A stretch of DNA of 64,000 bases from Clostridia bacterium (GTDB taxonomy: Bacteria; Bacillota; Clostridia; Oscillospirales; Acutalibacteraceae). Of the stretch, positions 3,151-20,963 are shown piece by piece (the stretch's first letter is position 1; each line of letters opens with the position of its first letter). The notes beneath the pieces are model-generated. The model was not told where the DNA came from. It worked only from the letters and a program-made list of their open reading frames with translations, and searched no databases. The translations under genes and the position numbers were made by a program. The stretch is from contig JAFTUG010000002.1 of assembly GCA_017466365.1 (NCBI GenBank), positions 119,556 to 183,555 of the forward strand. Reading direction: 5' to 3'.

Positions 3151-3180
3151 AAGGGGCTGTAAAAAACAGCCCCTTTTTGT
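3151..3180. terminator. Bidirectional intrinsic terminator between convergent genes
   Basis: A stem AAGGGGCTGT / ACAGCCCCTT with a short A-rich loop is followed by T5 on the + strand and preceded by A-rich sequence, so it can act on the - strand too. It lies between the GT8-like gene (+) and the rhamnosidase gene (-). Confidence 0.9.
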
Positions 3181-5429
3181 CATATTTTATAACTGTATTT
3201 ACCGCCGTTAACGGTTTCGTCAATTTTATCGCCGAGAATAATTTTTGCATTTGCACCGTCGGGAATTTCAATTTCAACATTGAAACGTCCGTCGGTATTT
3301 TTATTCCACTTAACTGAAAGTTTACCGAGCGGTGTTTCGATTGAAGCTTTTGCAAATTCAAGTCCGCAGTAAAGCTCGGGTTTAACGGTGAATGAACGGT
3401 AACCGTCACGAATATCTCTTATGCCTGCAATATGAGTAAAAAGAGCTTCGTCATATGTTGCAAGGAAATAGTGGTCCTGCGAGCGGGTGGTTTTCTCCCA
3501 TGCCTCCCATGCACTGTCGGCGCCGCATTCTATCCAGTAGCCCCAGCTCGGATATGTTGTTTGCGTAAGAACCCTATAAGCGATATCAGTATAGCCGTTA
3601 TCAAAAAGTACAGGCAAAATGAATCTTGTGCCCGTGCAGCCTGTGTCGAGGTGATAATCCTTCTCTGTAATATCTCCTGCAAGATTTTCAAGAACAGCCT
3701 TTTTATGTTCTTCGGGAACAAGTCCGAAGGCGAGTGGGAGAAGATTTGAGGTCTGTCTGTATTTAGTGCGTACTCCAAGCTCTCTCCAGTAGGTTGTCTG
3801 ATAAATTCCCTCGTCGGAAAGGAAAAATTTCTTGTTGAATGCATCGTATATGTTTTTTCTTGCCGCTTCATATATTCCGATATCTTCGGTTTTTCCGAGC
3901 TTTTCGGCAATGTATATCATGGATTCAAGCATACGGTAAATGAATGCCGTGCAGCAAATTTCAGCGCCTTCGGAAGGGTCGGGCTGGATTTCGTCAAGCT
4001 CTCCTCCCGAAGGGGAAAGCCAGTCGGAAAGACCCCTTGTGCCCCATGTCCAATCAAGAGATTCGAGTTCCTCAATGTCATTGAGTGCGAATTGTTTTAA
4101 ATCAGGATAAATCTCGCTTGCGTATCCGGTATTGTTGCAGTAATTTATAAGCGCTTCAACTCCAAAAACGAAGATTGTGTTCCATACAGGTGAATTTCCG
4201 ATGCCCCAATCAGCTGCGGGAACTATAACGGGAACTTTTTCGTATTCCTTAAAGCAATCGTCCATGATGTTGATGAAGTTTTGCATATATTTATCCATAT
4301 CGAAGTTCAGCATCATCACATGCAGTGCGCAGTTTGCATCGCCGAGCCAGCCGTTTTTCTCCCATACGGGGGTATCTGTAGGTTTGCTCTGGAAATTATT
4401 GAGCAGAGTGCGCTGCATAAGAGCATGAAGCTTATTGATAAGCTCGTTTGAGCATGAAAATTCCGATACGGATTTAACATCGTTTGCAATTCTGTAAAAT
4501 GTAATGTTTTTGTTTGTTATTTCGTACGGACTGCCGTCAATTTGGATATACTTAAAGCCCTTGTAGCTGTATTTCGGTTCAAAAACATTCTCTTCGCTGC
4601 CTGCAATAAAGTTATCCTGCTGAATATAGCAGTCGGGCCACCATTCGGCATTATGACCTTCGTCTATGCCTATTTTCTGAAGATAACCGTCAGCTTTGAG
4701 TTTTTCGCCGTAAGTAACGGTTATTTTTGTTCCTTCGGGAATATCAAGAGAAATCTTTGCCCAGCCTGTTATCATTTCGGGCGCGGTGATAACATAGCTT
4801 CCGTTTGGCATAAGCTTTATTTCTTTCGGCTCGAATTTACTGATTCTTCTTATGTAAGGCTCATCCTGAAGCTTAAGACTGCCTTTCGGAGCATCAACAC
4901 AAATTGCGTTTTCCCAAGTGAATTCTTTGCGTCTTAAATCGTGGGTTTCTCCGTAATATATGCTGTTTGCAATAACGGGTCCGTCAAGGGTTACAAGCCA
5001 TGATTCATCGGTCAAAATTGTATCTGTCTCGCCGTTGTCATATGTAATTGCCAAATCTGCAATAAGTTTAGGCGAAGACCTCCATGAAGCCTTGTCCCAA
5101 TCCCATACACCTGTTGTTTCATTGAAAAAATAGTTGCCGAGTTCAACGGTAATTTCATTCTCACCGTTAACAAGCAAATCGGCAATATCAAATTCTCTGT
5201 AAAACACGGTTTGGCTGTATTGTGAATGAGCGGGATTTAAAACCGTGTCGTCCGGGAGCTTGCCGTTGATTTTAAGCTCAAAAAGACCGAGACCGCAGAT
5301 TTTTATATTTGCTGCAAAAAAATTTTTTGAAATATTAAATGTTTTTTTGAATATGGGAGCAAATCTGTCCTCGATAGTCATTTTTGCTCCGATCCATTTT
5401 CCGTTAAGAATATTATTGCCTGTGTTCAT
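3180..5429 (-). CDS. Alpha-L-rhamnosidase, GH78 type
   Basis: A protein of 749 residues starting at the ATG at 5429 after a GTGAGGG-like site; the frame stays open 21 codons further upstream. N-terminal beta-sandwich domains (roughly residues 1-300) precede an (alpha/alpha)6 catalytic region. KPTDTPVWEKNGWLGDA matches the GH78 block that carries the general acid (usually CPTDCPQRDERLGWTGDA), and ECGADSAWEAWE corresponds to the GATTxWExW block near the C-terminus. The enzyme hydrolyses terminal alpha-L-rhamnose. No signal peptide is seen, so it probably acts in the cytoplasm on imported glycosides. It is a single gene, inverted relative to its glycan-synthesis neighbours, and probably serves catabolism rather than capsule synthesis. 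Confidence 0.85.
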   Translation of the reverse strand: MNTGNNILNGKWIGAKMTIEDRFAPIFKKTFNISKNFFAANIKICGLGLFELKINGKLPDDTVLNPAHSQYSQTVFYREFDIADLLVNGENEITVELGNYFFNETTGVWDWDKASWRSSPKLIADLAITYDNGETDTILTDESWLVTLDGPVIANSIYYGETHDLRRKEFTWENAICVDAPKGSLKLQDEPYIRRISKFEPKEIKLMPNGSYVITAPEMITGWAKISLDIPEGTKITVTYGEKLKADGYLQKIGIDEGHNAEWWPDCYIQQDNFIAGSEENVFEPKYSYKGFKYIQIDGSPYEITNKNITFYRIANDVKSVSEFSCSNELINKLHALMQRTLLNNFQSKPTDTPVWEKNGWLGDANCALHVMMLNFDMDKYMQNFINIMDDCFKEYEKVPVIVPAADWGIGNSPVWNTIFVFGVEALINYCNNTGYASEIYPDLKQFALNDIEELESLDWTWGTRGLSDWLSPSGGELDEIQPDPSEGAEICCTAFIYRMLESMIYIAEKLGKTEDIGIYEAARKNIYDAFNKKFFLSDEGIYQTTYWRELGVRTKYRQTSNLLPLAFGLVPEEHKKAVLENLAGDITEKDYHLDTGCTGTRFILPVLFDNGYTDIAYRVLTQTTYPSWGYWIECGADSAWEAWEKTTRSQDHYFLATYDEALFTHIAGIRDIRDGYRSFTVKPELYCGLEFAKASIETPLGKLSVKWNKNTDGRFNVEIEIPDGANAKIILGDKIDETVNGGKYSYKI

Positions 5430-5462
5430 ATTGCCCTCACTTCTTTCGGTAATATACTTGTA

Positions 5463-5492
5463 AGTATAAACCCGGAGAATAAGAACCGTCAA
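5463..5492 (-). promoter_or_regulatory. Sigma-A-type promoter of the rhamnosidase gene
   Basis: Read on the - strand, TTGACG at 5492-5487 is separated by 18 bases from TATACT at 5468-5463, about 35 bases upstream of the start codon at 5429. It lies back-to-back with the promoter of the divergent esterase gene. Confidence 0.65.
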
Positions 5493-9990: not shown

Positions 9991-10269
9991 ATGACTGAAA
10001 GAACTTATCGCATAAAAGTAAAATATATCATGCGTGAAATTGCAGGTGAATATCTTGCGATTCCTCTCGGCGCGGAGGGTGAGAATACCTCGCAGATTGT
10101 TATTCTTAACCCCGTAAGCAAGCTGTTGTGGGAGGCTCTTCAAAGTGAGGTTACCCTCGGTGAGCTTGTTGACAAAGTGCTCTCGTCGTTTGATGTTTCC
10201 CGTGAAGAAGCCGAAGCCGATACAAAGGACTTCCTTTTTGAGCTTATTCAACTCGGATTTTTAAACTGA
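9991..10269 (+). CDS. PqqD-like small protein (RiPP recognition element type)
   Basis: A protein of 92 residues preceded by a TTGGAGG ribosome binding site. The features expected of PqqD-like proteins are present: an N-terminal beta strand pair (YIMREIAGEYLAIPLG), the central NPVSKLLWEAL segment matching the family's N-x-[ST]-G/K-x-x-[IL]-W pattern, and a C-terminal helical part with DTKDFLFELIQLGFL. PqqD-like domains bind leader peptides of ribosomally made, post-translationally modified peptides and present them to modifying enzymes, often radical SAM/SPASM proteins. Such an enzyme is encoded two genes downstream. A related pairing of PqqD-like and HprK-like proteins is known as the HPr-rel-A system. 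Here the gene rides on the capEFG transcript and ends at a terminator. Confidence 0.82.
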   Translation: MTERTYRIKVKYIMREIAGEYLAIPLGAEGENTSQIVILNPVSKLLWEALQSEVTLGELVDKVLSSFDVSREEAEADTKDFLFELIQLGFLN

Positions 10270-10278
10270 ATAAATCAT

Positions 10279-10320
10279 AAACGGTAATTGCGTTAATTGT
10301 GCAATTTACCGTTTTTTTTA
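10279..10320 (+). terminator. Intrinsic terminator of the capEFG-pqqD unit
   Basis: Inverted repeat AAACGGTAATTGC ... GCAATTTACCGTTT followed by a run of eight T residues, ten bases after the PqqD-like stop codon. Confidence 0.85.
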
Positions 10321-10365
10321 TTGCGAAAAATGCACTTTTGTTGCAAAAAAACACAATTGTTAATG

Positions 10366-10394
10366 TTGACATTCGCCTTATTATGTAATATAAT
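10366..10394 (+). promoter_or_regulatory. Perfect-consensus sigma-A promoter of the kinase/radical SAM/secreted protein unit
   Basis: TTGACA at 10366-10371, exactly 17 bases, TATAAT at 10389-10394. It is a full match to the housekeeping consensus, 29 bases before the ATG at 10424 and just after the preceding terminator. Confidence 0.9.
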
Positions 10395-10423
10395 ATTACG
10401 GAATAAAAATGGAGCAGTGTTGT

Positions 10424-11287
10424 ATGAAAAAATATTATTCGTTTTGCAAATGTAATATCTGCATTGATGCTCCGTTGTTTTTTCACGAAAATGCAGAGTG
10501 GAGCTTGTTTGAAACCGAAGCATGTCAGCCTGATGTCGGAATTTATTGCAAAAGATGCAGTAAACTGCCGAAGCCCGAAGGCGATTATCTCGGAAAAAAC
10601 GGTGATGCTCATGCTTATTCAAACTCAACCCGTGTTTACCGTCATGTGAAGATGGGGACTGATAACGGTGCAGTAACCCTTTTCGATTACGCCGATCCGT
10701 CCGTGAGCGAAACCTTTATAGGCGAAGCAAACTATCACATTATGACGGACTCCCGTTTGATATGGAATTCAATTTCAATGCAGCAGATTATGCTTGCAAA
10801 CAGCACTTTGTTTTTCCATTCATCGTTTATTGAGTATAAGGGCAGGGGAATCCTTTTTTCCGCTCCGTGCGGTACGGGTAAAAGCACGCAGGCTGCTCTT
10901 TGGGAAAAACATAGAGATGCCGAAATCATCAACGGTGATAAGGCAGGGGTAACGTTGCATAACGACTTGTTTTATGCGTGCGGAATTCCGATTTGCGGAA
11001 CAAGCGGCATTTGCAAAAACAAAACCCTTCCCCTCGGTGCGATAGTCCTTCTCGGTCAGGCGAAACATAACACGGTAACTCAAATTGTCGGTGTGCAGGC
11101 TTTGAGTGAATTGCTCAAAAATATCTATCTCGATTTTCTTGTTCCCGAGGAACGGATAATGTGCATAGACTTGCTCGAAAAGCTGATTGAGTCTGTTCCT
11201 GTTTACAGGCTGCTGTGTACTCCCGATGAAAATGCGGTTGAGGCACTTGAAAAAGCTTTGATGAACGGAGGCGTGTTTGATGAATAA
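10424..11287 (+). CDS. HPr kinase-like ATPase
   Basis: A protein of 287 residues from ATG 10424, chosen over ATG 10409 because GGAG lies at the right distance. The N-terminus is cysteine-rich (CKCNIC near residue 8). The C-terminal half carries a P-loop, SAPCGTGKSTQAALW (about residues 145-160), then INGDKAGV, resembling the kinase domain of HprK/PEPCK-like proteins. HprK proper has an extra N-terminal domain and phosphorylates HPr; the shorter relatives occur beside PqqD-like proteins and in RiPP clusters. One of them, in paeninodin-type lasso clusters, phosphorylates the precursor. Gene order (PqqD, this kinase, radical SAM) suggests it acts on a peptide or protein from this locus. The substrate is inferred, not shown. 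It overlaps the next gene by 8 bases. Confidence 0.8.
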   Translation: MKKYYSFCKCNICIDAPLFFHENAEWSLFETEACQPDVGIYCKRCSKLPKPEGDYLGKNGDAHAYSNSTRVYRHVKMGTDNGAVTLFDYADPSVSETFIGEANYHIMTDSRLIWNSISMQQIMLANSTLFFHSSFIEYKGRGILFSAPCGTGKSTQAALWEKHRDAEIINGDKAGVTLHNDLFYACGIPICGTSGICKNKTLPLGAIVLLGQAKHNTVTQIVGVQALSELLKNIYLDFLVPEERIMCIDLLEKLIESVPVYRLLCTPDENAVEALEKALMNGGVFDE

Positions 11288-12362
11288 TTACGATATTCTG
11301 ATAAACGGTCTTTTCGCCAAAGCGCAGATGCAAGGCATACCTCTTTCCGGTGCCTTTGAGCTTACCTCTCGCTGTACTCTTGACTGCAGGATGTGTTATA
11401 TACACCGTCACGAGCATGACCGTGAAGCCATAAACGGCGAAAAGGATACCGCATGGTGGTGTGATTTGGCAAACCAAGCCGCAAATGCAGGAACACTTCC
11501 CGTTCTTTTAACCGGCGGTGAACCGCTCATAAGGCGTGATTTTGATAAAATTTATCTTGCATGCAAAAACGCAGGGCTTCTTGTTTCGGTCAATACCAAC
11601 GGCACTCTGATAAATGACGAAAAAATCCGCTTTTTTAAGGAGAATCCCCCGCAAAAGCTCAATCTCACTCTTTACGGCACTTCAAAAGAAACCTATGCCG
11701 ATCTTTGCGGTAACGGCGAGGTGTTTGAAACCGTCATTGAAGCAATAAGAAAGCTTAAAGAAGCGAAAATCAACGTTAAGCTCAATTATTCCGTAACCCC
11801 GCAGAATGTATGCGATGCGCTGAAAGCTTTGGATTTTGCAAGAGAATTGCAGATACCCATTCAGCCTGTCACCTATATGTTTCCGCCCGTGCGTACCGAG
11901 TGCGGCATAATAACTGAAAGACTTACTCCGTATGAAGCGGCAAATGTACATTTTGATTGGCAGAAAAAGCTCCTCGGTAATGAATTTGCGGATTATTTAA
12001 AAAACAAAAGCAATGCCCCTCCGCTTTATGCCGATACAGATGAATGCGGTGAGCGGATAAACTGCCGTGCAGGGTCAACAACCTTTTGGGTAACCTGGAA
12101 AGGCGAAATGACACCGTGCGGAATGATGAACGAGCCTTCCGTGCCGATTGAAGATTTCAAAGAGGCGTGGAATAAGATACGGGAAAAGCGAAAAGAAATC
12201 TTCCTTCCGTCGGAGTGCACAGGCTGTGAATACCGCAGGGATTGCGATATGTGTGCGGCTGTGGCATATGCCGAAACGGGAAAATTCAACGGCTTACCCG
12301 AATACGTCTGCAAAAAAACACATGAATACAGCAGACTGTGCCGTGAATTTTTGAACAAATAA
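11280..12362 (+). CDS. Radical SAM/SPASM domain protein, probable peptide-modifying enzyme
   Basis: A protein of 360 residues from ATG 11280 with GGAGG upstream. The radical SAM [4Fe-4S] motif CTLDCRMC lies at residues 32-39 and the GGEP motif (LTGGEPL) about 45 residues later. The C-terminal SPASM region is complete: Cx12Gx4C (CRAGSTTFWVTWKGEMTPC), then Cx2Cx5Cx2C (CTGCEYRRDCDMC), then a further Cys near residue 341, enough for auxiliary iron-sulfur clusters. SPASM enzymes commonly install crosslinks, thioethers or epimerisations on peptides; some mature enzymes or modify other substrates. Translation is coupled to the HprK-like gene. With the PqqD-like protein and the 78-residue peptide in the locus, peptide modification is the most likely role. 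Confidence 0.9.
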   Translation: MNNYDILINGLFAKAQMQGIPLSGAFELTSRCTLDCRMCYIHRHEHDREAINGEKDTAWWCDLANQAANAGTLPVLLTGGEPLIRRDFDKIYLACKNAGLLVSVNTNGTLINDEKIRFFKENPPQKLNLTLYGTSKETYADLCGNGEVFETVIEAIRKLKEAKINVKLNYSVTPQNVCDALKALDFARELQIPIQPVTYMFPPVRTECGIITERLTPYEAANVHFDWQKKLLGNEFADYLKNKSNAPPLYADTDECGERINCRAGSTTFWVTWKGEMTPCGMMNEPSVPIEDFKEAWNKIREKRKEIFLPSECTGCEYRRDCDMCAAVAYAETGKFNGLPEYVCKKTHEYSRLCREFLNK

Positions 12363-12373
12363 TTCACACTTTG

Positions 12374-12435
12374 CTCCTTGGGCTTCCTCTGATGAGGAAG
12401 CTGTCCGCAGGACTGAAGGAGTAATAAACCCAAGG
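12374..12435. repeat. Structured palindromic element (REP/MITE-like or structured RNA)
   Basis: A compact set of inverted repeats: outer CTCCTT/AAGGAG, inner CTTCCTC-TGAT-GAGGAAG, then GTCC-GCA-GGAC, together a three-way-junction shape. CCTTGGG at the 5' side can also pair with CCCAAGG at 12429-12435. It resembles short palindromic repeats dispersed between genes in gut Clostridia (pattern GGCTCCC..GGGAGCTGTC..GACTGAGGGAG). Only one copy is in this window, so the repeat nature is inferred. Confidence 0.55.
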
Positions 12436-12441
12436 CAATAA

Positions 12442-12470
12442 TTATCCAAGAAATAATTTGGATTTAATAT
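12442..12470 (+). promoter_or_regulatory. Weak candidate promoter with inverted repeat before the large secreted protein gene
   Basis: TTATCC at 12442-12447 and TAATAT at 12465-12470 have a 17-base spacer, but the -35 matches poorly. A perfect inverted repeat ATCCAA (12444-12449) / TTGGAT (12458-12463) lies across the spacer and could be an operator. Readthrough from the promoter at 10366 is the alternative. Confidence 0.3.
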
Positions 12471-12505
12471 AGATTTTCACATGCAAATTTTTTGGAGGTA
12501 ATTCT

Positions 12506-15500
12506 ATGAAAAAACATGCAAAAAAAATTATTACCGCGCTGCTGGTAATAACATTGCTCATTCCGACAGTTGCAATGCTTGTTTCAAATGCGGCGGAAAC
12601 GACAACCGTTGAACTCGCTTTTAACAACGTCTTCGTTTTTGAAAAGTGGGCAAACAACTCACTGTCACCCACCCCTATATTGGACGGTGTTGCTTTAAGC
12701 GGTGATGCAGCCAAGGAGGCAATAACAACAGACATCGCAAACGGCAGCTTTACGCTTACTAAGACCAATATGGATGCGGGTGAACTTTACACTGCTTTCT
12801 CAATGGATTCAGCAAATGCCGCAGGTAATGAAGATTATTATATGATGGATGTTGAACCCAACACCTCTTACACATTCACCTATAATGTTTCGGGTGACCT
12901 CTGGGCTTTTACTCCTTTTGTTTTCATGTATACCGATCAGGGCTTGTTTGCAGGCACTGATTCAATGGTAGCATATGCAACACCCGGATACGGAATCAAC
13001 AGTTTCAGCTTCACCACTCCTGCTAACGTTACCAATATTCAGGTCCGTTTCACCATTGGTGACAATTCATCAAATCATTCCGGAGTGTCTTCCGTTTATG
13101 CTAATGTTTCGGACATTGCAATTTACAAAACTGAATTGTATGACACATATGTTGCTTCCAAAAACCTTTTCAGCCTTGAGGGTTGGGCAAGTAACTCATT
13201 ATCCTCTGCTCCCATAGATAGCAACACAGGTACTATAACCACGGATACCGTTTCCGAAACTGTTACATTCACAACAGCTGCTACAGCAGACACTTATCTC
13301 TGGTCAGGTAACGCGGTCCTCAACTCTTCAACGGCATACACTGATTACTACTCAATAGATGTTGAACCAAACACCAGTTACACATTGACTTACAGCGTTA
13401 TCGACCACAACCTTACCGGTCCTACTTATTGTCAGCCGTGGATAGTCGAATATAGTGCAGAGGGACAACAAACAGCCCTCTTCAACTATGAAGCTTCGGG
13501 CTATCTCAACAACAAAAAAGTATTCACAACTAATGAAAAAACTGTCAGCCTTCAGGTTGTTTTTGCTGTAATTAATGACAGCAATGCTGTGTCACGAACC
13601 TGTACCGTTTCAGACATCGGCGTTTATACAACTTCCAACTTCAGTGCCGATTTTGAAACCATTACGGGACACCCCCACCGTCAGACTTATGAGGCAAGCA
13701 CCGGCACCTACGGTGAGCTTCCCACACCCACAAACGTTCCTGTAGGTATGGTATTTGCAGGCTGGTATACAGCTCCCAACGGCTCGGGTGAACGCATCAC
13801 CGCCGAAACAGATGTTTCTTACCGGAGCTATACCGTTTATCCCAAATACGAAGTCAAGGTTGATACACTTGAAGTTGTAACACTGCCTGCAAAAACAACT
13901 TACACTTTGGGCGAAAAGTTCAACCCTGCAGGCCTTGTTCTTAAAGCAACCGTTGCCAATGCCGACGGCACTGTTTCAACAGTCAATGTTAACTCGGGTT
14001 ACTATTGCACACCCGAATATTTAACCGCAACAGGTGAACAGACCATCACCGCTCACTATGGCGGACAGACTGCCACATTCACTGTTACCGTTAATGCTTC
14101 CGAAAACAAATCGGTTACCGTTAACAATGTTGTTTATGATAATATTGCGGTTGCAAATAATGAATATACCTTCAATTACACCACCTCGTCATTCAATCGC
14201 TATGAAATTACATATTATTCCGATTCATATGTCAGAGGTATAATCACATTTGACGACGATACAACAGAGGAATTCTTCCTTGAACCCTCCAACAGCGGTC
14301 GCTTTGCTTCTTACATTGATAACTTCCTTGCAAACGCATCTCACATAGGCGTTAAATCAATCAAGTTCACCTGCCTTAATAAGGAATTCGGCAAAGTTGA
14401 ACTGTATTCATTGACAACAATCAGTGCTGCCGTTCCCACCAATTCTGTTCAGTACTTTGAGAACGAAAAGTATAAGGTTGGTATTGACCTTGCATTCGGC
14501 GGCGTTATTTCCTACATTGAATGTTTGGAAGGTGCTACCGACGGTCAGGGTAACGTTATGGCAGCACGATATACAGGTACAGACGGCAATACTTACACCA
14601 AGGTTGACTACAAAGATAAGCTGCCCGCAGGTGCAATTGACACGGTTGAAAGCGTTAACCTTATCAACACATGGGACCGCGGTCGTTATCTTCAGCAGTC
14701 ATATTACGGAACCGACCAGCCTCCCTTTGTAATGGGTGACTACAACGGCGTTCCCTGGAACTACAACCCCGTTCAGGGCGGTAACCTTAAAAGCACCATC
14801 ACCAACAACGGCGGTGAGGCAAGTAAGGTTATTGACTACAGAATCACAGGTTCACAGATTTATGTTAAGACCCGTCCTCTTGACTGGGGTAAAAACTCCG
14901 TCGACTATGCAGATGACCCCGCATGGAACACTCCCTCATATATGGAAGCATGGTACACCTTCACAACAGATGGTAAGGGTCTGATTCAGGGTACCTGCCG
15001 CTTTGTTGACTATTCAGGCTATCCTTCAAACACAACCACGCAGGAATTCCCCGCACTCTACACGGTCGAGCCTCTTAATCACTTCGTTTATAACGAAGTT
15101 ACCGAAGAAAATGCTTGGGCTGCAACTCAGGATGAGTTCAAAGCCGATGCCTATAGCAGCGATACTACCACCACAGGTGCTCAGAACATTGCAGAGCCCG
15201 ATTTCTGGGGCGTTCTTCCCTCATACAACCAGTATAACCCCGACGGACCGGTTGACCCCGACATTGTGGCACACGAAAACTGGGCTGCTTTCACAGCCAG
15301 TGAAGATAAGGACAGCTTCGGTATCGGCATTTATTCGCCGGGCGTAACCGATATCCATTACGGCTGTTTCGTTGCAAAATATGATGAGAATCAGTATAAA
15401 GCAAAGGGTGAACAGGGTGCAGAAGCAGACGGTGGTTACATTGTCGCAAAGAATGCAGGCACCGAAGGTTCTTACACACATGTAGAAAACTACAGACATG

Positions 15501-18500
15501 CCTCTACTCTTGATCCCGCAGTAGAAATGAACACCTCGTATATCGCTCCCATCAACACATTAACCTTTGACAGCTATACCCCCATCACCTACACTTACTA
15601 TGTTTCAACGGGTACTGCTGATGAAATCCGTGAGGACTTCAGACTTGCAAAGGAAACTGAAGAAAATGCTCAAAAGGAAGTTGCCAAGATTGCAGTTCCC
15701 GAAACAGTTTATATGACTCCCGTTGCTGACGGTGCTACCTACACAACAATCGGTCAGAATTATGTTAACAATGCTTTGAGCGACTTAAATGTTGTTTATA
15801 CTGTTGCAGAACCTGCCGATAATATGTATTTCGGTATGTATGCTCTTGATGCAAAAGAGTTTTCTGTTAATGTTACAAACGTTACAGACCCCTCCAATGA
15901 GATTGATTTCTACAATCTTTCAAGCTCTGCAAGTGCAGAAGGTGAACTCCTCTCTTGCACAGACTCAAGATACAGAGCGGATGACACATACGGCCTGCGT
16001 TTCACGGGCACGGGACTTAAGCACGGCGAAATGGCAACCGCCAAGTGGGAGATAACCGTCACCCTTAATGACGGCTCAACCGAAACCTACACGGCGTATA
16101 CGGTATTGTATGCACCCGAGCGCACCGTCGGTGCCGTTGCGGAAGGCCGTTATAACTCCAACTCCATGTCTGAAATTTCCTCATGGATAACCGGTGCAAC
16201 CGGAGTTGACCACTCCCAGAGAGCACCCCTCGGCTCATTCCACGGCGACATCCACGATTCAGGTTATTTCAGAGTAGATCCCTTGGCAAATCCCGATACT
16301 TTACCTACAGGCGGTTCAGCTGAAACCTCAAATGACTATATTATCACCACCAACCCCAGCTACATCGGCGCCGGGGATGATGCAGATGATTACACCGACA
16401 ATGCCTATGTTCTTCAGACTGCAACCCATGACTCTGACTCTTCAAGAGCACAGAGCTATCTCGGTTTGCTGGCTATCGATAAATCCCGTTATTCAAACAC
16501 AAATCAGATTCCCAACCTTAAAATAGGTTATGATGCACTTCGTGTCGGCGGCTACGAGAAAGACTCACTTTCCGTTTATAACAATTATTATACTTTAGGT
16601 ACCGACGCCTCATTTGCATCCACAGATCTTTCTGATACACCCAGCGGCTGGACTACATTCAAGAGCTATTCCGAACTCTATGGTTCAAACGGCGGTGTTA
16701 TTCCCTACAGAGAAACAGTTGTTCCTTCATACGCTGTTTCGGATGATCTTGACGGTAAATATATCCACGCAATAGCTTACGGTAAATCTTATAATTTGCT
16801 CGGAAGCAGATATGCAACCGCAGGTACATCTGTTCTCCTTTCCGTAACTGACAAGAGTGCACTCCGTGATTCGGTACTCAACGGTTATTCTCAAGCTGAA
16901 GAAAACAGCTCGGTAGCAACATATCCCGAGTTTATCGAGAAGCTCGAAGATGCAGCAACCGTTCTCGGTGACCCGACTGCAACTCAGGAAGAAATCGACA
17001 ATGCACAAACAGAGCTTGATAAGATTACGGACAAAATGCTCAATACTTATTATTCACTGAAATACGATAACCTTTTCAGTGCTTATGAGTTCTCACTGCA
17101 TTCCAACAGCATGACGGTTGTTGCTGACAGAGGAACCGCTTCCTATAATGACGGCGCAATCACCGTTGTTAACGACACTATCACAGGCGGCGAAGCATAT
17201 ACCAACTACGGTACAGCAAGCGGCTACTATCTCATCGATTTGAAGCCGAATACAGAATATGTATTTGAATATACTTCAGAAACAACCTTAAAAGCTCAGG
17301 CATTTATGTTCTTCTATAACAGCAGCGGCGGTGCCGGAGATGTTCCGACGAATATGTCCATAAAGGTAAATGACGGCAGCTGGTCACCGAAATCTGAATC
17401 CAATGCTTGGTGGGGCAATTATCAGAACAGTGCAGGCACTGATCACTATGCGATAAAGTTCACCACCGGTGCTAACACCACCAAAGCCGGCTTCCGTTTC
17501 GGTAATACAAGCAATGATCCCGTTACCTCAACCTTCTCCAACATCAAGCTGATTGACGCAGCTCACTATTATGAAGATGTTACATATACAAAGACTGAAA
17601 GTGTTCATAAAGAACATACGTCTTACGGTACTCTTCAGACTCTCACCAGAACAGGCTATACCTTCGGCGGTTGGGTAGATGCAGACGGAAATACAGTAAC
17701 CGAAGCAGATATCGCAACAGAGCATAAATCAATCTACTCGGTTTGGAACGAAAACAGCTACACCATCGTTTATAACTCAAACGGCGGTACGGGTACGGTT
17801 GCAAATCAGACGGCTACTTACGCACAGAGCGTTAAACTTGCTTCAGGCGGTTATGTAAAGTCAGGATATGCTCTTAAGGGTTGGTCAACCAATGCCAACG
17901 CAACAACTGCAGAGTATCAGCTTGGCGAAACCGTCACCGGACTTACCAATGTTAATGGCGATACAGTTAATCTTTATGCTGTTTGGGCAATTTCCGAAAT
18001 CAATGTTACTTTTGATAACCTTATCAACTTCAATGCCTGGAACAAAATAGCCGGCAACGGTGTTGTTTCCGGTATTACCGATACAGGCTTCACAATCACA
18101 ACAAACAGCGGCTCGGGCGAAAGCACCTCGGAATCTCCTGAATTCCCCGTTACCGAAGGCAAACAGTATATAATTGATATTGATTTTGTCGGCGACGGAT
18201 GGGATGTTTATATCTTCTTCCGAAATGCAACGCAAGGCGGAACGGGTATTGATTTCTCCGACAGCACTAACAGATTCTCATCTAATGGATCCGGTAATAC
18301 TTCACAGATATTTACGGCACCTGCCGGCGCAACCAAGGCGGTAATCCGTGTTGACTCAAACGGCTCAAATAATTCCGTATCATTTGATAACATCCGTGTT
18401 TATGAATATGACGGAATTTCACCCATTGAAGTGAAACCCGCAAACAAAATCGTAATCGGCGGTGAAACATTCGGCGAACTTCCCACACCCACTAAGGAAG

Positions 18501-20683
18501 GCTTCAACTTTGTTGGTTGGTATGATGAAAGCGGTAATCAGGTATATTCAACTTCAACAGTTCCCAATGATACCGACGGTCATGTTCCTCTCACATCCAA
18601 GTGGCAGCTTGCTGATACAGCTCTCACCGAGGATACTGCGGTTTTAGACTTCGGTACTCCCATTGTAATCGATGCCTATGGCAACGATACAATTCTCCAA
18701 AAAGCAGCAACCGCTTACGGTGCAACAGGCAGCATCAACGGTGTTTCAATTGACGGCATCACATATTCAACATCCGTTAACGGCAACTATGGCGTATTTA
18801 ATGTTGAAGATGGAAAAGTAACTTATACTCCCACAGCTGTTATTAACGGCGTTGAAAAAATTTATTATCAGGCACAGCTCAGCGCAGTTGACACAACACC
18901 TGTTGAAAATCAGATCTCAATTGTTCCCGCTTCCAACATTCTTTATGAAGAAACTGTTGCTTCAAGCGGCAATAACGGCAAATCATGGTCATCAGACGGT
19001 ACTTCTACCCTTGCTAACCAGACTGCTTCAGATGGTATTTACGGTTATGATGCCGCTTACTTGAACAACAACACCTATTCAGGCGGCACAGCAGAAACTG
19101 TTGTTCTTGATTATTATTCATCAAGAAGTGCTACTAAGTCATTTGAATTTACAGGCGATGCTTTTGATCTTATTTCCGCTTGCGGTAAAAAGACAGGCGC
19201 TCAGATTGTAACAGTAAGAAACAGTGCAGGATCTATCGTGAAAGTATATATAGTTGATACATACTATAGCGATGCAAGTATCATTGATTCAGACACCGGT
19301 ATTCTTTATCAGGTTCCCATTGTCAGCTTCCGCGGCGATTATGATGCATATTCCGTTGAAGTAACCGCTGCATATATTACAAGTGCTATGGCTTTCCGTT
19401 CACGTAACAGTGCAGTTACAACCTATGCAGTTGAAACTGATAATTCAGAAATTGAAGCTTCCGCAGTAACAGTTTCAGATAAGGAAGCAATTGCAGAAAT
19501 CCTTGCTGAAGTTGGAATGGAAGACCTTGCAACTGAAAATGTTGAGCTTGTATGGTTCGATGATGATTCAATTTTCAATGGCGGCACAGGTGCTTTCCTT
19601 GTAAGTGAGCCTGCAACAGAGAATGAATCTGTTCAGATGATGGCATCCGAAAGCGGACAGCTTTCAGTTTCGGTTGTTTATGACTGGGGCAATGATCCCA
19701 CATATATTCCCGATACAGTAACCAAACCTGACGGTTTTGTATTCTATTACACCAAGGGACAGACACTTACTGACGACAGCATAGATAAAACCTATAAATC
19801 ATCTACTATAGTTGATATTGAAGGCGAAGACGGTATCTGGAAATTCAGCGGATGGAAAATTCCCAATAAGGGCGTAATCAAGAGCAATCCTGTTGTAGTA
19901 ACAGGTAAATGGACATTCTATCCTGAACTGAATTATTACTTTGACGGCATTCGTGTTTATAATCCCGTAGCAGATACATCGTCTTATATTGCTTCAGAGC
20001 AGAATGCTGTTTACTGCAATGTAATAAACAGTCTTGCAGACGGAGATATATTCACTGATGTCAGCGGCATTGCATATGTTGAAGGCGCAACATTTGAAGA
20101 AGCAAGCTTCGCAGAATATCAGAATAAGGGTCCCCAGAATGAGCTTTATCTTACAAGCGGTAATTCCGGTGTTTCATTCAGCGTTCCCCTTCCCGAGGGT
20201 GCAAAAGTAATGCTCGGCGTTCGTGCAGTTTCCGGTTCACCCAAGCTTACAATTAACGGTAAGGCTTTTGAAATCAATACTGCAACAGAAATGTATTATG
20301 ATATTACACAATATTTAACCGCAACAGACGGTATAGCTCCGATTGCAATTACTAATACCGGTATTGGAGGAATTCTTGCTGTAAACAACATCAAGTTTGT
20401 TGGTATAGCAACGGCTTCTGTAAGCACGCTTAGTCTTGACAGGACAAGAGCACTTATGGCTATGGAACCCGTTGATGTGGAATATACCCTTCCCGGAGTT
20501 TCTGAACCCGAAGCAGAAGAACCGACTCCCGATACAGACGGAGATGTTGACGATAACGGCACAACAGATTGGATTGAAGTTGTAATCAGCAACATCCGCT
20601 CCTTCTTCTCGGATATCTTCGGCTATATCAAGCAGATTTTTGAACTTATAATTTCAAGTGTTACTGCAAAGGAGGTATTTTGA
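12506..20683 (+). CDS. Giant secreted multidomain protein with repeated beta-sandwich and InlB-type repeat modules
   Basis: A protein of 2725 residues behind a TTTTGGAGG ribosome binding site. The N-terminus is a clear signal peptide (KKHAKK, then a hydrophobic run, AxA-like cleavage near residue 30). Four related beta-sandwich modules resembling carbohydrate-binding modules begin near residues 38, 210, 1520 and 1832 (each NxxxxxxW/F..., then a xVEPNTxYxxxY-like block). Listeria-Bacteroides (InlB B-type) repeats with GW(Y/V/S) occur near residues 385-450, 1692-1750, 1752-1830 and 1978-2033. An Ig-like domain lies at about 450-531, and a large unassigned beta-rich region with NTWDRGRYLQQSYYG at about 647-1045. 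A FIVAR-like helical pair lies at about 1450-1514. The C-terminus has an acidic linker and an amphipathic helix but no LPXTG motif or clear membrane anchor. It probably binds surface glycans; any catalytic activity is unknown. Its TGA overlaps the ATG of the next gene by one base. Confidence 0.88.
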   Translation: MKKHAKKIITALLVITLLIPTVAMLVSNAAETTTVELAFNNVFVFEKWANNSLSPTPILDGVALSGDAAKEAITTDIANGSFTLTKTNMDAGELYTAFSMDSANAAGNEDYYMMDVEPNTSYTFTYNVSGDLWAFTPFVFMYTDQGLFAGTDSMVAYATPGYGINSFSFTTPANVTNIQVRFTIGDNSSNHSGVSSVYANVSDIAIYKTELYDTYVASKNLFSLEGWASNSLSSAPIDSNTGTITTDTVSETVTFTTAATADTYLWSGNAVLNSSTAYTDYYSIDVEPNTSYTLTYSVIDHNLTGPTYCQPWIVEYSAEGQQTALFNYEASGYLNNKKVFTTNEKTVSLQVVFAVINDSNAVSRTCTVSDIGVYTTSNFSADFETITGHPHRQTYEASTGTYGELPTPTNVPVGMVFAGWYTAPNGSGERITAETDVSYRSYTVYPKYEVKVDTLEVVTLPAKTTYTLGEKFNPAGLVLKATVANADGTVSTVNVNSGYYCTPEYLTATGEQTITAHYGGQTATFTVTVNASENKSVTVNNVVYDNIAVANNEYTFNYTTSSFNRYEITYYSDSYVRGIITFDDDTTEEFFLEPSNSGRFASYIDNFLANASHIGVKSIKFTCLNKEFGKVELYSLTTISAAVPTNSVQYFENEKYKVGIDLAFGGVISYIECLEGATDGQGNVMAARYTGTDGNTYTKVDYKDKLPAGAIDTVESVNLINTWDRGRYLQQSYYGTDQPPFVMGDYNGVPWNYNPVQGGNLKSTITNNGGEASKVIDYRITGSQIYVKTRPLDWGKNSVDYADDPAWNTPSYMEAWYTFTTDGKGLIQGTCRFVDYSGYPSNTTTQEFPALYTVEPLNHFVYNEVTEENAWAATQDEFKADAYSSDTTTTGAQNIAEPDFWGVLPSYNQYNPDGPVDPDIVAHENWAAFTASEDKDSFGIGIYSPGVTDIHYGCFVAKYDENQYKAKGEQGAEADGGYIVAKNAGTEGSYTHVENYRHASTLDPAVEMNTSYIAPINTLTFDSYTPITYTYYVSTGTADEIREDFRLAKETEENAQKEVAKIAVPETVYMTPVADGATYTTIGQNYVNNALSDLNVVYTVAEPADNMYFGMYALDAKEFSVNVTNVTDPSNEIDFYNLSSSASAEGELLSCTDSRYRADDTYGLRFTGTGLKHGEMATAKWEITVTLNDGSTETYTAYTVLYAPERTVGAVAEGRYNSNSMSEISSWITGATGVDHSQRAPLGSFHGDIHDSGYFRVDPLANPDTLPTGGSAETSNDYIITTNPSYIGAGDDADDYTDNAYVLQTATHDSDSSRAQSYLGLLAIDKSRYSNTNQIPNLKIGYDALRVGGYEKDSLSVYNNYYTLGTDASFASTDLSDTPSGWTTFKSYSELYGSNGGVIPYRETVVPSYAVSDDLDGKYIHAIAYGKSYNLLGSRYATAGTSVLLSVTDKSALRDSVLNGYSQAEENSSVATYPEFIEKLEDAATVLGDPTATQEEIDNAQTELDKITDKMLNTYYSLKYDNLFSAYEFSLHSNSMTVVADRGTASYNDGAITVVNDTITGGEAYTNYGTASGYYLIDLKPNTEYVFEYTSETTLKAQAFMFFYNSSGGAGDVPTNMSIKVNDGSWSPKSESNAWWGNYQNSAGTDHYAIKFTTGANTTKAGFRFGNTSNDPVTSTFSNIKLIDAAHYYEDVTYTKTESVHKEHTSYGTLQTLTRTGYTFGGWVDADGNTVTEADIATEHKSIYSVWNENSYTIVYNSNGGTGTVANQTATYAQSVKLASGGYVKSGYALKGWSTNANATTAEYQLGETVTGLTNVNGDTVNLYAVWAISEINVTFDNLINFNAWNKIAGNGVVSGITDTGFTITTNSGSGESTSESPEFPVTEGKQYIIDIDFVGDGWDVYIFFRNATQGGTGIDFSDSTNRFSSNGSGNTSQIFTAPAGATKAVIRVDSNGSNNSVSFDNIRVYEYDGISPIEVKPANKIVIGGETFGELPTPTKEGFNFVGWYDESGNQVYSTSTVPNDTDGHVPLTSKWQLADTALTEDTAVLDFGTPIVIDAYGNDTILQKAATAYGATGSINGVSIDGITYSTSVNGNYGVFNVEDGKVTYTPTAVINGVEKIYYQAQLSAVDTTPVENQISIVPASNILYEETVASSGNNGKSWSSDGTSTLANQTASDGIYGYDAAYLNNNTYSGGTAETVVLDYYSSRSATKSFEFTGDAFDLISACGKKTGAQIVTVRNSAGSIVKVYIVDTYYSDASIIDSDTGILYQVPIVSFRGDYDAYSVEVTAAYITSAMAFRSRNSAVTTYAVETDNSEIEASAVTVSDKEAIAEILAEVGMEDLATENVELVWFDDDSIFNGGTGAFLVSEPATENESVQMMASESGQLSVSVVYDWGNDPTYIPDTVTKPDGFVFYYTKGQTLTDDSIDKTYKSSTIVDIEGEDGIWKFSGWKIPNKGVIKSNPVVVTGKWTFYPELNYYFDGIRVYNPVADTSSYIASEQNAVYCNVINSLADGDIFTDVSGIAYVEGATFEEASFAEYQNKGPQNELYLTSGNSGVSFSVPLPEGAKVMLGVRAVSGSPKLTINGKAFEINTATEMYYDITQYLTATDGIAPIAITNTGIGGILAVNNIKFVGIATASVSTLSLDRTRALMAMEPVDVEYTLPGVSEPEAEEPTPDTDGDVDDNGTTDWIEVVISNIRSFFSDIFGYIKQIFELIISSVTAKEVF

Positions 20684-20919
20684 TGAATCAGTATGTTAAG
20701 CCTGTAATCAAGCTTGCAGGTACTTCAGGTGCCTCGTCAGGCTCATGCGCATATAACCTGACAAAAGACGATTTGGAACTTATTGCCGGCATTATCGGCG
20801 ATATTGATGTAGACAAAGCCTTCGGTATGTATGAAGCTTGTGAGGTTCAGGTTCCTATCGAATCATATTGTAAGTTCACATCCGGTGAACTCGGCGCTTC
20901 AATGGCCTTTAGTTCATAA
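20683..20919 (+). CDS. 78-residue peptide, candidate RiPP precursor
   Basis: The ATG at 20683 overlaps the stop of the giant gene (TGATG) and has a perfect AAAGGAGG site eight bases upstream. The peptide starts MNQYVKPVIKL, a YxxPxI/L pattern like the leader motif recognised by PqqD-like domains in lasso and other RiPP systems. A Gly/Ser-rich stretch (residues 12-21) and three cysteines (22, 53, 63) follow. The C-terminus FTSGELGASMAFSS is rich in Ser/Gly, and the middle (about 27-45) is an acidic helix. No signal peptide is seen. With a PqqD-like protein, an HprK-like kinase and a SPASM enzyme in the same locus it is a good precursor candidate. Alternatively it is a small partner of the giant protein. 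Function is inferred. Confidence 0.7.
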   Translation: MNQYVKPVIKLAGTSGASSGSCAYNLTKDDLELIAGIIGDIDVDKAFGMYEACEVQVPIESYCKFTSGELGASMAFSS

Positions 20920-20928
20920 AAATTACGA

Positions 20929-20963
20929 GACCGCTCGTGTGTTAATTCACACGGGCGGTTTTC
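20929..20963 (+). terminator. Intrinsic terminator after the candidate precursor gene
   Basis: Stem ACCGCTCGTGTG / CACACGGGCGGT with a TTAATT loop, followed by TTTTC, starting ten bases after the stop codon. It separates the RiPP-like unit from the capsule operon. Confidence 0.85.

Follow-up and report, generated by a model that had tools for sequence, protein, structure and literature searches.

Does the run of five genes at positions 9991–20919 of the window (the whole 64,000-nucleotide stretch of DNA analysed here) make up one peptide-modification pathway, and what would its product have to do with the giant secreted protein encoded in the same run? We consider it probable that the genes specify a pathway of the RiPP type, one dedicated to giant surface proteins. 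This reading is built on what was observed of gene order and its conservation, of invariant peptide positions and pocket residues, and of the sharing and co-occurrence of modules.

Gene content and transcription units

All five ORFs were found in the window sequence in the order given in the preliminary description. The neighbours are also as named there, with FucNAc genes (FnlA-, FnlB- and WecB-like) upstream and a Cps4B-like gene downstream; of these only WecB reached its curated cut-off, the FnlA-, FnlB- and Cps4B-like products scoring below theirs. The features of the locus are as follows.

9991..10269, plus strand: PqqD-like protein (RRE), 92 aa (PF05402)
10279..10314, plus strand: terminator-like hairpin with T-run in the gap between PqqD and kinase genes (-15.7 kcal/mol for a 58-nt piece, z -3.8)
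10366..10394, plus strand: promoter match upstream of the kinase gene, TTGACA-17-TATAAT, 12/12
10424..11287, plus strand: HprK-like kinase, 287 aa (ORF open from 10409)
11280..12362, plus strand: radical SAM/SPASM enzyme, 360 aa (ORF open from 11277)
12506..20683, plus strand: giant secreted protein, 2725 aa
18629..19474, plus strand: module M1 of the giant, aa 2042–2323 (iterated profile)
19925..20488, plus strand: module M2 of the giant, aa 2474–2661 (iterated profile)
20669..20675, plus strand: Shine-Dalgarno sequence of the peptide, AAGGAGG, within the last codons of the giant (from the sequence)
20683..20919, plus strand: precursor peptide, 78 aa (ORF, alignment)
20927..20962, plus strand: terminator hairpin 3′ of the peptide (-27.2 kcal/mol, z -8.5)

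The kinase, radical-SAM, giant and peptide genes appear to be transcribed together, as a unit closed by the strong hairpin at 20927–20962. The PqqD gene appears to lie on the preceding unit and to be transcribed with the FucNAc genes, as judged from the gap of only 15 nt that separates it from them, the hairpin at 10279–10314 and the promoter match at 10366–10394. This hairpin was not listed in a separate scan for terminator-like sites; promoter-like sites numbered 24 in the stretch against a shuffle mean of 22.9, and the site at 10366–10394 was the sole 12/12 match. With regard to transcription, the proposed five-gene unit is thus retained for four genes, the PqqD gene apparently going with the FucNAc genes. 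Upstream of the latter, a 770-aa ORF on the minus strand (window 3180–5492) lies among plus-strand genes, and its product appears alpha-L-rhamnosidase-like by eye.

The start of the peptide gene overlaps the stop codon of the giant by 1 nt (TGATG). The last residues of the giant (KEVF in the window, GEVM at loci L042 and L049) coincide with the Shine-Dalgarno sequence of the peptide, as seen in the DNA for the window. Since its last codons hold this sequence, the C-terminal end of the giant may be shaped by translation coupling.

Precursor peptide

The ORF at 20683–20919 encodes the 78-residue peptide with a YxxP start that had been noted from the sequence. It begins MNQYVKP (in longer form MNQYVKPVIKLAGTSGASSGSC) and holds Y4, K6 and P7, the three cysteines C23, C53 and C63, and the final S78. 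No family match was obtained for the window peptide in profile searches. Matches amounted to 105 ORFs, 96 of them distinct, from which one false match (L198, 163 aa) was dropped to leave 95.

A C-terminal Ser is present in 91 of the 95 distinct peptides; the other four comprise the ends GSY, ASL and ASV and one broken frame. In an alignment of 87 sequences (9 of the 96 matches omitted for score or missing motif), Y was found in 87, K in 81, P in 85, the three Cys in 86, 85 and 86, and the C-terminal Ser in 85, with F, Y or L two residues ahead of this Ser in 84. The runner-up Ser/Thr columns reached 52/87 and 46/87. A profile-free check covered same-strand small ORFs with an N-terminal Y-x-[KRASTE]-P at 80 loci found by their radical-SAM gene (the best 80 of at least 456): a final Ser is present in 45 of 52 motif-bearing ORFs and in 196 of the 2041 remaining small ORFs, and of the seven exceptions five appear by eye to be spurious. 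Being nearly invariant, the C-terminal Ser is a plausible kinase target.

Predicted modifying enzymes

The PqqD-like protein matched Pfam PF05402 with 47.7 bits (cut-off 23.4), and its family profile matches the leader-binding RREs TbiB1 (5v1u), PbaB1 (9x90), LppB (9x8z) and TfuB1 (6jx3). On the basis of a hand count, residues N40, V42, D77 and F81 correspond without gaps to N33, V35, D70 and F74 of LppB (9x8z chain offset 18, hand-checked against 11 published pocket residues), and judged by these positions the window protein keeps the pocket residues of a YxxP-leader binder. D77 is invariant in the PqqD alignment (18 sequences) and F81 is present in at least 90% of it. In LppB this Asp is described as holding the leader Tyr, with Gln at that position in the Trp-type PbaB1 (PMC13381572, in the part covered here). 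D77 accordingly fits the YVKP precursor, and the LppB-identical pocket residues suggest that the window protein may bind the leader.

The radical-SAM enzyme matched PF04055 with 81.8 bits and the Pfam SPASM family with 16.1 bits, under the cut-off of 21.5. All 14 sequences of an alignment that includes the window protein keep the CxxxCxxC motif, and all 14 also have the seven cysteines of the SPASM region (C262, C280, C313, C316, C322, C325, C344), in agreement with the full SPASM cysteine set reported before. The closest solved-structure match by sequence was SkfB, and none of the 25 best NCBIfam models listed reached its cut-off. The models of the sactipeptide or ranthipeptide maturases StsB, SkfB and PapB fell short of their curated scores, at 77.3 versus 625, 49.2 versus 300 and 45.3 versus 340 bits, respectively.

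The kinase had no Pfam match and matched ScmC and HprK_rel_A weakly. Its AlphaFold model (pLDDT 93.7) returned PEPCK and HprK/P as Foldseek matches, so that the assignment as an HprK-like P-loop kinase is upheld by predicted fold, the HprK match by sequence alone against the PDB being not significant (E 0.22). His132, a GKST P-loop at 152–155 and Asn-Gly-Asp at 170–172 were identified, and P-loop, His and NGD are conserved. The HPr-rel-A system is not matched at curated score: HprK_rel_A scored 17.3 against 200 bits, and the SynChlorMet models were likewise far below their cut-offs.

A near-full-length kinase was present in 26 of 26 genomes with a peptide match at ≤1e-5, the copy in G063 having a stop in the matched stretch. 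Of the fetched loci of 52 peptides with flanks of 5 kb or more on each side, six were without a kinase (L049, L056, L124, L132, L135, L137), and each of the five genomes behind them (G175, G080, G321, G366, G162) holds one elsewhere. For the HprK-like kinases ThcoK and SyanK, polyphosphorylation of a C-terminal Ser has been reported, and the P. dendritiformis kinase reportedly phosphorylates the C-terminal Ser of its lasso precursor, whereas BsfK targets a ring Ser (PMC10368454, PMC5067487, PMC7533575, in the parts covered here) and LppK targets core Ser3 (PMC13381572, likewise in part). The near-invariant C-terminal Ser, together with the activity reported for the HprK-like lasso kinases, makes Ser78 the likely target; given LppK and BsfK, the phosphorylation site may differ in the window system.

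In one relative the kinase and the radical-SAM enzyme are apparently fused in a single ORF of ~660 aa (L131:7078-9063). Related families commonly have a shorter class of kinase, of ~240 aa: in the order-level genomes G468 (L155) and G633 (L159) it adjoins PqqD and S24-like genes, and in some family genomes it is near an NTP_transf_5 gene. The loci with this class are probably LPP-like clusters.

Recurrence in related genomes

When the window peptide alone was used as query, 10 of 200 family genomes matched at E 0.1, its own included, the good matches lying at six places spread over five further genomes. With 14 aligned peptides as query, 398 family genomes gave matches in 39 at E 0.1 and in 26 at ≤1e-5, again with its own included; matches to the radical-SAM enzyme at 1e-30 were found in 36 of 300. 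A scan of named genomes returned at least 456 relatives, and the 80 best were retained for analysis. Among these 80 are many ruminant-gut MAGs named Clostridia or Oscillospiraceae and also some Lachnospiraceae, Erysipelotrichaceae and Christensenellaceae.

The order kinase, radical SAM, giant, peptide was found for 18 of the 95 distinct peptides, window included. Among these 18, a PqqD gene lies upstream on the same strand at three (window, L133 and L160), where the complete five-gene order thus recurs, and reversed at six. The giant is directly followed by the peptide at 65 of 95, and the commonest single order, giant, peptide, lipoprotein, kinase, radical SAM, PqqD, accounts for 23 of 95. 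The remaining loci are mostly slight variants or have the giant at the far end, and many are cut by contig ends. The five genes are accordingly recurrent as a set, their exact order in the window being one of several arrangements.

For the 52 peptides flanked by 5 kb or more on either side, the locus contained the kinase in 46, PqqD in 43 and the radical-SAM enzyme in 46, the last count being partly by construction as loci of the named-genome scan were fetched by their radical-SAM gene. A lipoprotein-like protein of ~250 aa accompanied 32 of the same 52; exporter genes were present at 8 of them and genes for an S24/SpI-like peptidase at 6. The ~250-aa protein (e.g. L050:8735-9478), by eye membrane-anchored or lipoprotein-like, often lies between peptide and kinase in relatives and is absent beside the window copy; no Pfam family was found in the three members tested.

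Giant protein and its C-terminal modules

The claim of a 2725-residue secreted protein is confirmed in the ORF at 12506–20683, with a start that is signal-peptide-like by eye. The protein contains Flg_new, Big_3 and SHIRT repeats, its front part is variable, and its C-terminal tail is amphipathic-looking. The peptide starts between -30 and +60 nt from the end of a giant gene in 60 of 95 cases, against 1 of 243 other small ORFs. The fronts of these 60 peptide-linked giants differ, and an unnamed C-terminal domain pair, M1 and M2, is present in 59 and 60 of the 60, respectively, by iterated profile (with models built from a single sequence, M1 and M2 are recovered in no more than 25/60 and 31/60). 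The predicted fold of M2 is weakly CBM-like. LPxTG is absent from the last 60 aa of all 60 giants, that of the window included, and no Y-x-K-P motif occurs in their first 40 aa. Signal-like N-termini were scored in 39 of 47 giants by a crude rule.

Module-bearing large ORFs were directly upstream of a peptide in 65 of 79 cases, compared with 0 of 74 large ORFs that lack it, as counted on ORFs not deduplicated and with a module profile trained on linked giants. The association of peptide and giant stands for the 78 of 95 peptides with a module-bearing giant within the fetched locus; in the fetched stretches of the other 17, several of them at contig ends, the giant was absent.

All 26 peptide genomes contain the M1–M2 module, and of 300 family genomes 23 have it. 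With the 300-genome sample taken as nested in that of 398, these 23 are all 19 genomes with a peptide match at ≤1e-5 plus G060, G079, G107 and G112; G079 has a weaker peptide candidate (L144), and the module match of G107 was not placeable in an ORF. In 19 of 20 further regions, some at contig ends, 22 module ORFs were found with no adjoining YxxP peptide, so the giant needs no peptide in cis. The module thus accompanies the system genome-wide and not only in cis, as all peptide genomes hold it and module giants without their own peptide exist. Several M1–M2 giants without their own peptide, sometimes in tandem, are encoded in each of G382, G015, G253 and G358.

Export, leader removal and glycan neighbours

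Genes for an SpI-like peptidase and an MsbA-like exporter adjoin the unit in some relatives and are absent beside the window copy. In the window's own genome (assembly 79.6% complete) no SpI peptidase was found, and the ABC exporters are only 24–29% identical.

CpsB or Wzz/BY-kinase homologues occur at 22 of 93 peptide loci. In two genomes of the same genus, an NTP_transf_5 gene and an LCP homologue come after the FnlA-WecB-FnlB homologues; one of the two also has, ~3 kb away, a PqqD 49% identical to that of the window. NTP_transf_5 was found in 25 of 26 peptide genomes against a base rate of 102 in 200 family genomes; in the window's own genome the single match to PF14907 (NTP transferase) is on another contig. 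The window locus also encodes Wzm/Wzt-like export proteins (under curated cut-offs) and an LCP transferase. With such genes as neighbours, glycosylation of the phospho-Ser is possible.

Proposed pathway and alternative explanations

In the pathway that we propose, the PqqD-like protein would bind the 78-aa precursor at its YVKP start and present the peptide, as its LppB-identical pocket suggests. The SPASM radical-SAM enzyme would modify the core, most likely at or around the three conserved Cys, and the HprK-like kinase would phosphorylate the C-terminal Ser78, in line with the conservation of this Ser and the reported activity of such kinases. After removal of the leader, the product would be exported by machinery encoded away from the window copy and, to judge from linkage and co-occurrence, would act at the surface with the giant of the same unit through its C-terminal M1–M2. 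A tentative extension is that the modified peptide serves as surface anchor or docking partner for giants: phosphorylated and cross-linked by one enzyme set, it would reside in or on capsule or wall, where every M1–M2-tailed giant would dock. The constant module behind variable fronts, the absence of LPxTG from the last 60 aa of 60/60 giants, the module giants without their own peptide in system-bearing genomes, and the FucNAc, NTP-transferase and LCP neighbours fit such a role, which if true would be a means of display separate from anchoring by sortase, SLH or CWB2.

Dedication to the giants is what separates this pathway from an ordinary released radical-SAM RiPP, i.e. an antimicrobial or signal of sactipeptide- or ranthipeptide-like kind that merely has the giant as neighbour in a surface locus. 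A SPASM enzyme, three conserved Cys and a sactipeptide enzyme, SkfB, as top solved-structure sequence match agree with a released product, but linkage and genome co-occurrence with M1–M2 giants are far above background, the StsB, SkfB and PapB models score far under their curated cut-offs, and the close spacing or overlap with a structural giant is in our judgement odd for a bacteriocin; we regard this explanation as quite unlikely. It is even less credible, indeed most improbable, that the enzymes act on the giant itself, at M1–M2, with the peptide only as helper or carrier. The module does follow the system across genomes, and several module giants lack their own peptide; yet Y-x-K-P occurs in 0 of 60 giants within the first 40 aa, when peptides have the Tyr in 87/87 and the Pro in 85/87, and giants carry signal-like N-termini (39/47, crude rule) while the enzymes have none by eye. 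The site of phosphorylation is a separate matter, as the pathway may be right and the kinase may act elsewhere, on another core Ser or a sugar, with the C-terminal F-x-S as a signal for export, trimming or attachment. Precedents for this are LppK and BsfK, reported to modify core Ser3 and a ring Ser, respectively, and peptides at the 6 of 52 well-flanked loci without a kinase nonetheless end in Ser. However, the genomes of these six loci hold the kinase elsewhere, and no other Ser/Thr column is comparably conserved (at best 52/87 and 46/87), which makes a different target doubtful.

The pairing of peptide and giant across related gut bacteria indicates a mode of cell-surface construction that is yet to be studied. 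The role of capsule-locus phospho-RiPPs is stated as unknown in the literature (PMC13381572, in the part covered here). If the dedicated pathway holds true, an HprK-like kinase and a SPASM radical-SAM enzyme would work on one peptide. The partner of this peptide, the giant encoded just upstream, would moreover be known from the outset, which would make the role directly testable. It would also offer a handle on how gut Clostridia hold adhesin-like proteins of 2000–3000 residues at their surface.

Comparison with known systems

The SynChlorMet cassette (ScmC, ScmD, ScmE) combines PqqD-like, HprK-like and SPASM proteins. The window unit shares this combination and differs in having one SPASM enzyme. 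The top NCBIfam matches were ScmD for PqqD and ScmC for the kinase; identity with the cassette was nevertheless rejected on scores of 23.5 versus 125 (ScmC), 29.6 versus 100 (ScmD) and 73.8 versus 400 bits (ScmE). With SkfB, PqqE and other SPASM peptide enzymes, the window enzyme has in common the radical SAM core and the SPASM cysteines.

The closest described relatives are the linear polyphosphorylated peptides (LPP) and the paeninodin-type lassos. In the sections covered here, the account of LPP and the P. alginolyticus lpp cluster (Popov et al. 2026, PMC13381572) describes a discrete PqqD-type RRE, a Tyr-type YxxP leader, an HprK-like kinase and a capsule-locus location, all as in the window system, where the kinase is assigned by predicted fold. 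The cluster also features an NTP transferase, an SpI-like leader peptidase and an MsbA-like exporter; an S24/SpI-like peptidase and an MsbA-like exporter are encoded beside the unit in some relatives. The LPP core set has no radical-SAM enzyme, the terms radical SAM and SPASM occurring 0 times in the paper, and the sections covered describe no giant protein, whereas the window unit has both a SPASM enzyme and a giant. The LPP leader consensus YxxPxVLxHQxIxFETxxS is not matched by the window peptide, its YxxP part alone being common to the peptide alignment, and LPP C-termini are described as highly variable, in contrast to the nearly invariant C-terminal Ser and three Cys of the window family (PMC13381572).

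Paeninodin-type lassos (those of ThcoK, SyanK and the P. dendritiformis kinase) share with the window a discrete RRE and an HprK-like kinase, and their C-terminal Ser, the reported phosphate site, is paralleled by the conserved C-terminal Ser of the window family. In the papers as covered here they are without the radical-SAM enzyme and the giant of the window unit, and paeninodin-like leaders are nearly always WxxP (PMC13381572) as opposed to YxxP in the window peptide. A lasso identity was rejected, as lasso cyclase and B2 leader protease are absent from the five window genes.

A literature search, with most subscription papers outside its scope, returned no description of a set of PqqD, radical SAM and HprK-like kinase. 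The logic of RRE plus kinase and the location in a capsule locus are known; the radical-SAM enzyme, the pattern of Cys and C-terminal Ser, and the giant are new to it, and possibly the function of the system is new as well.
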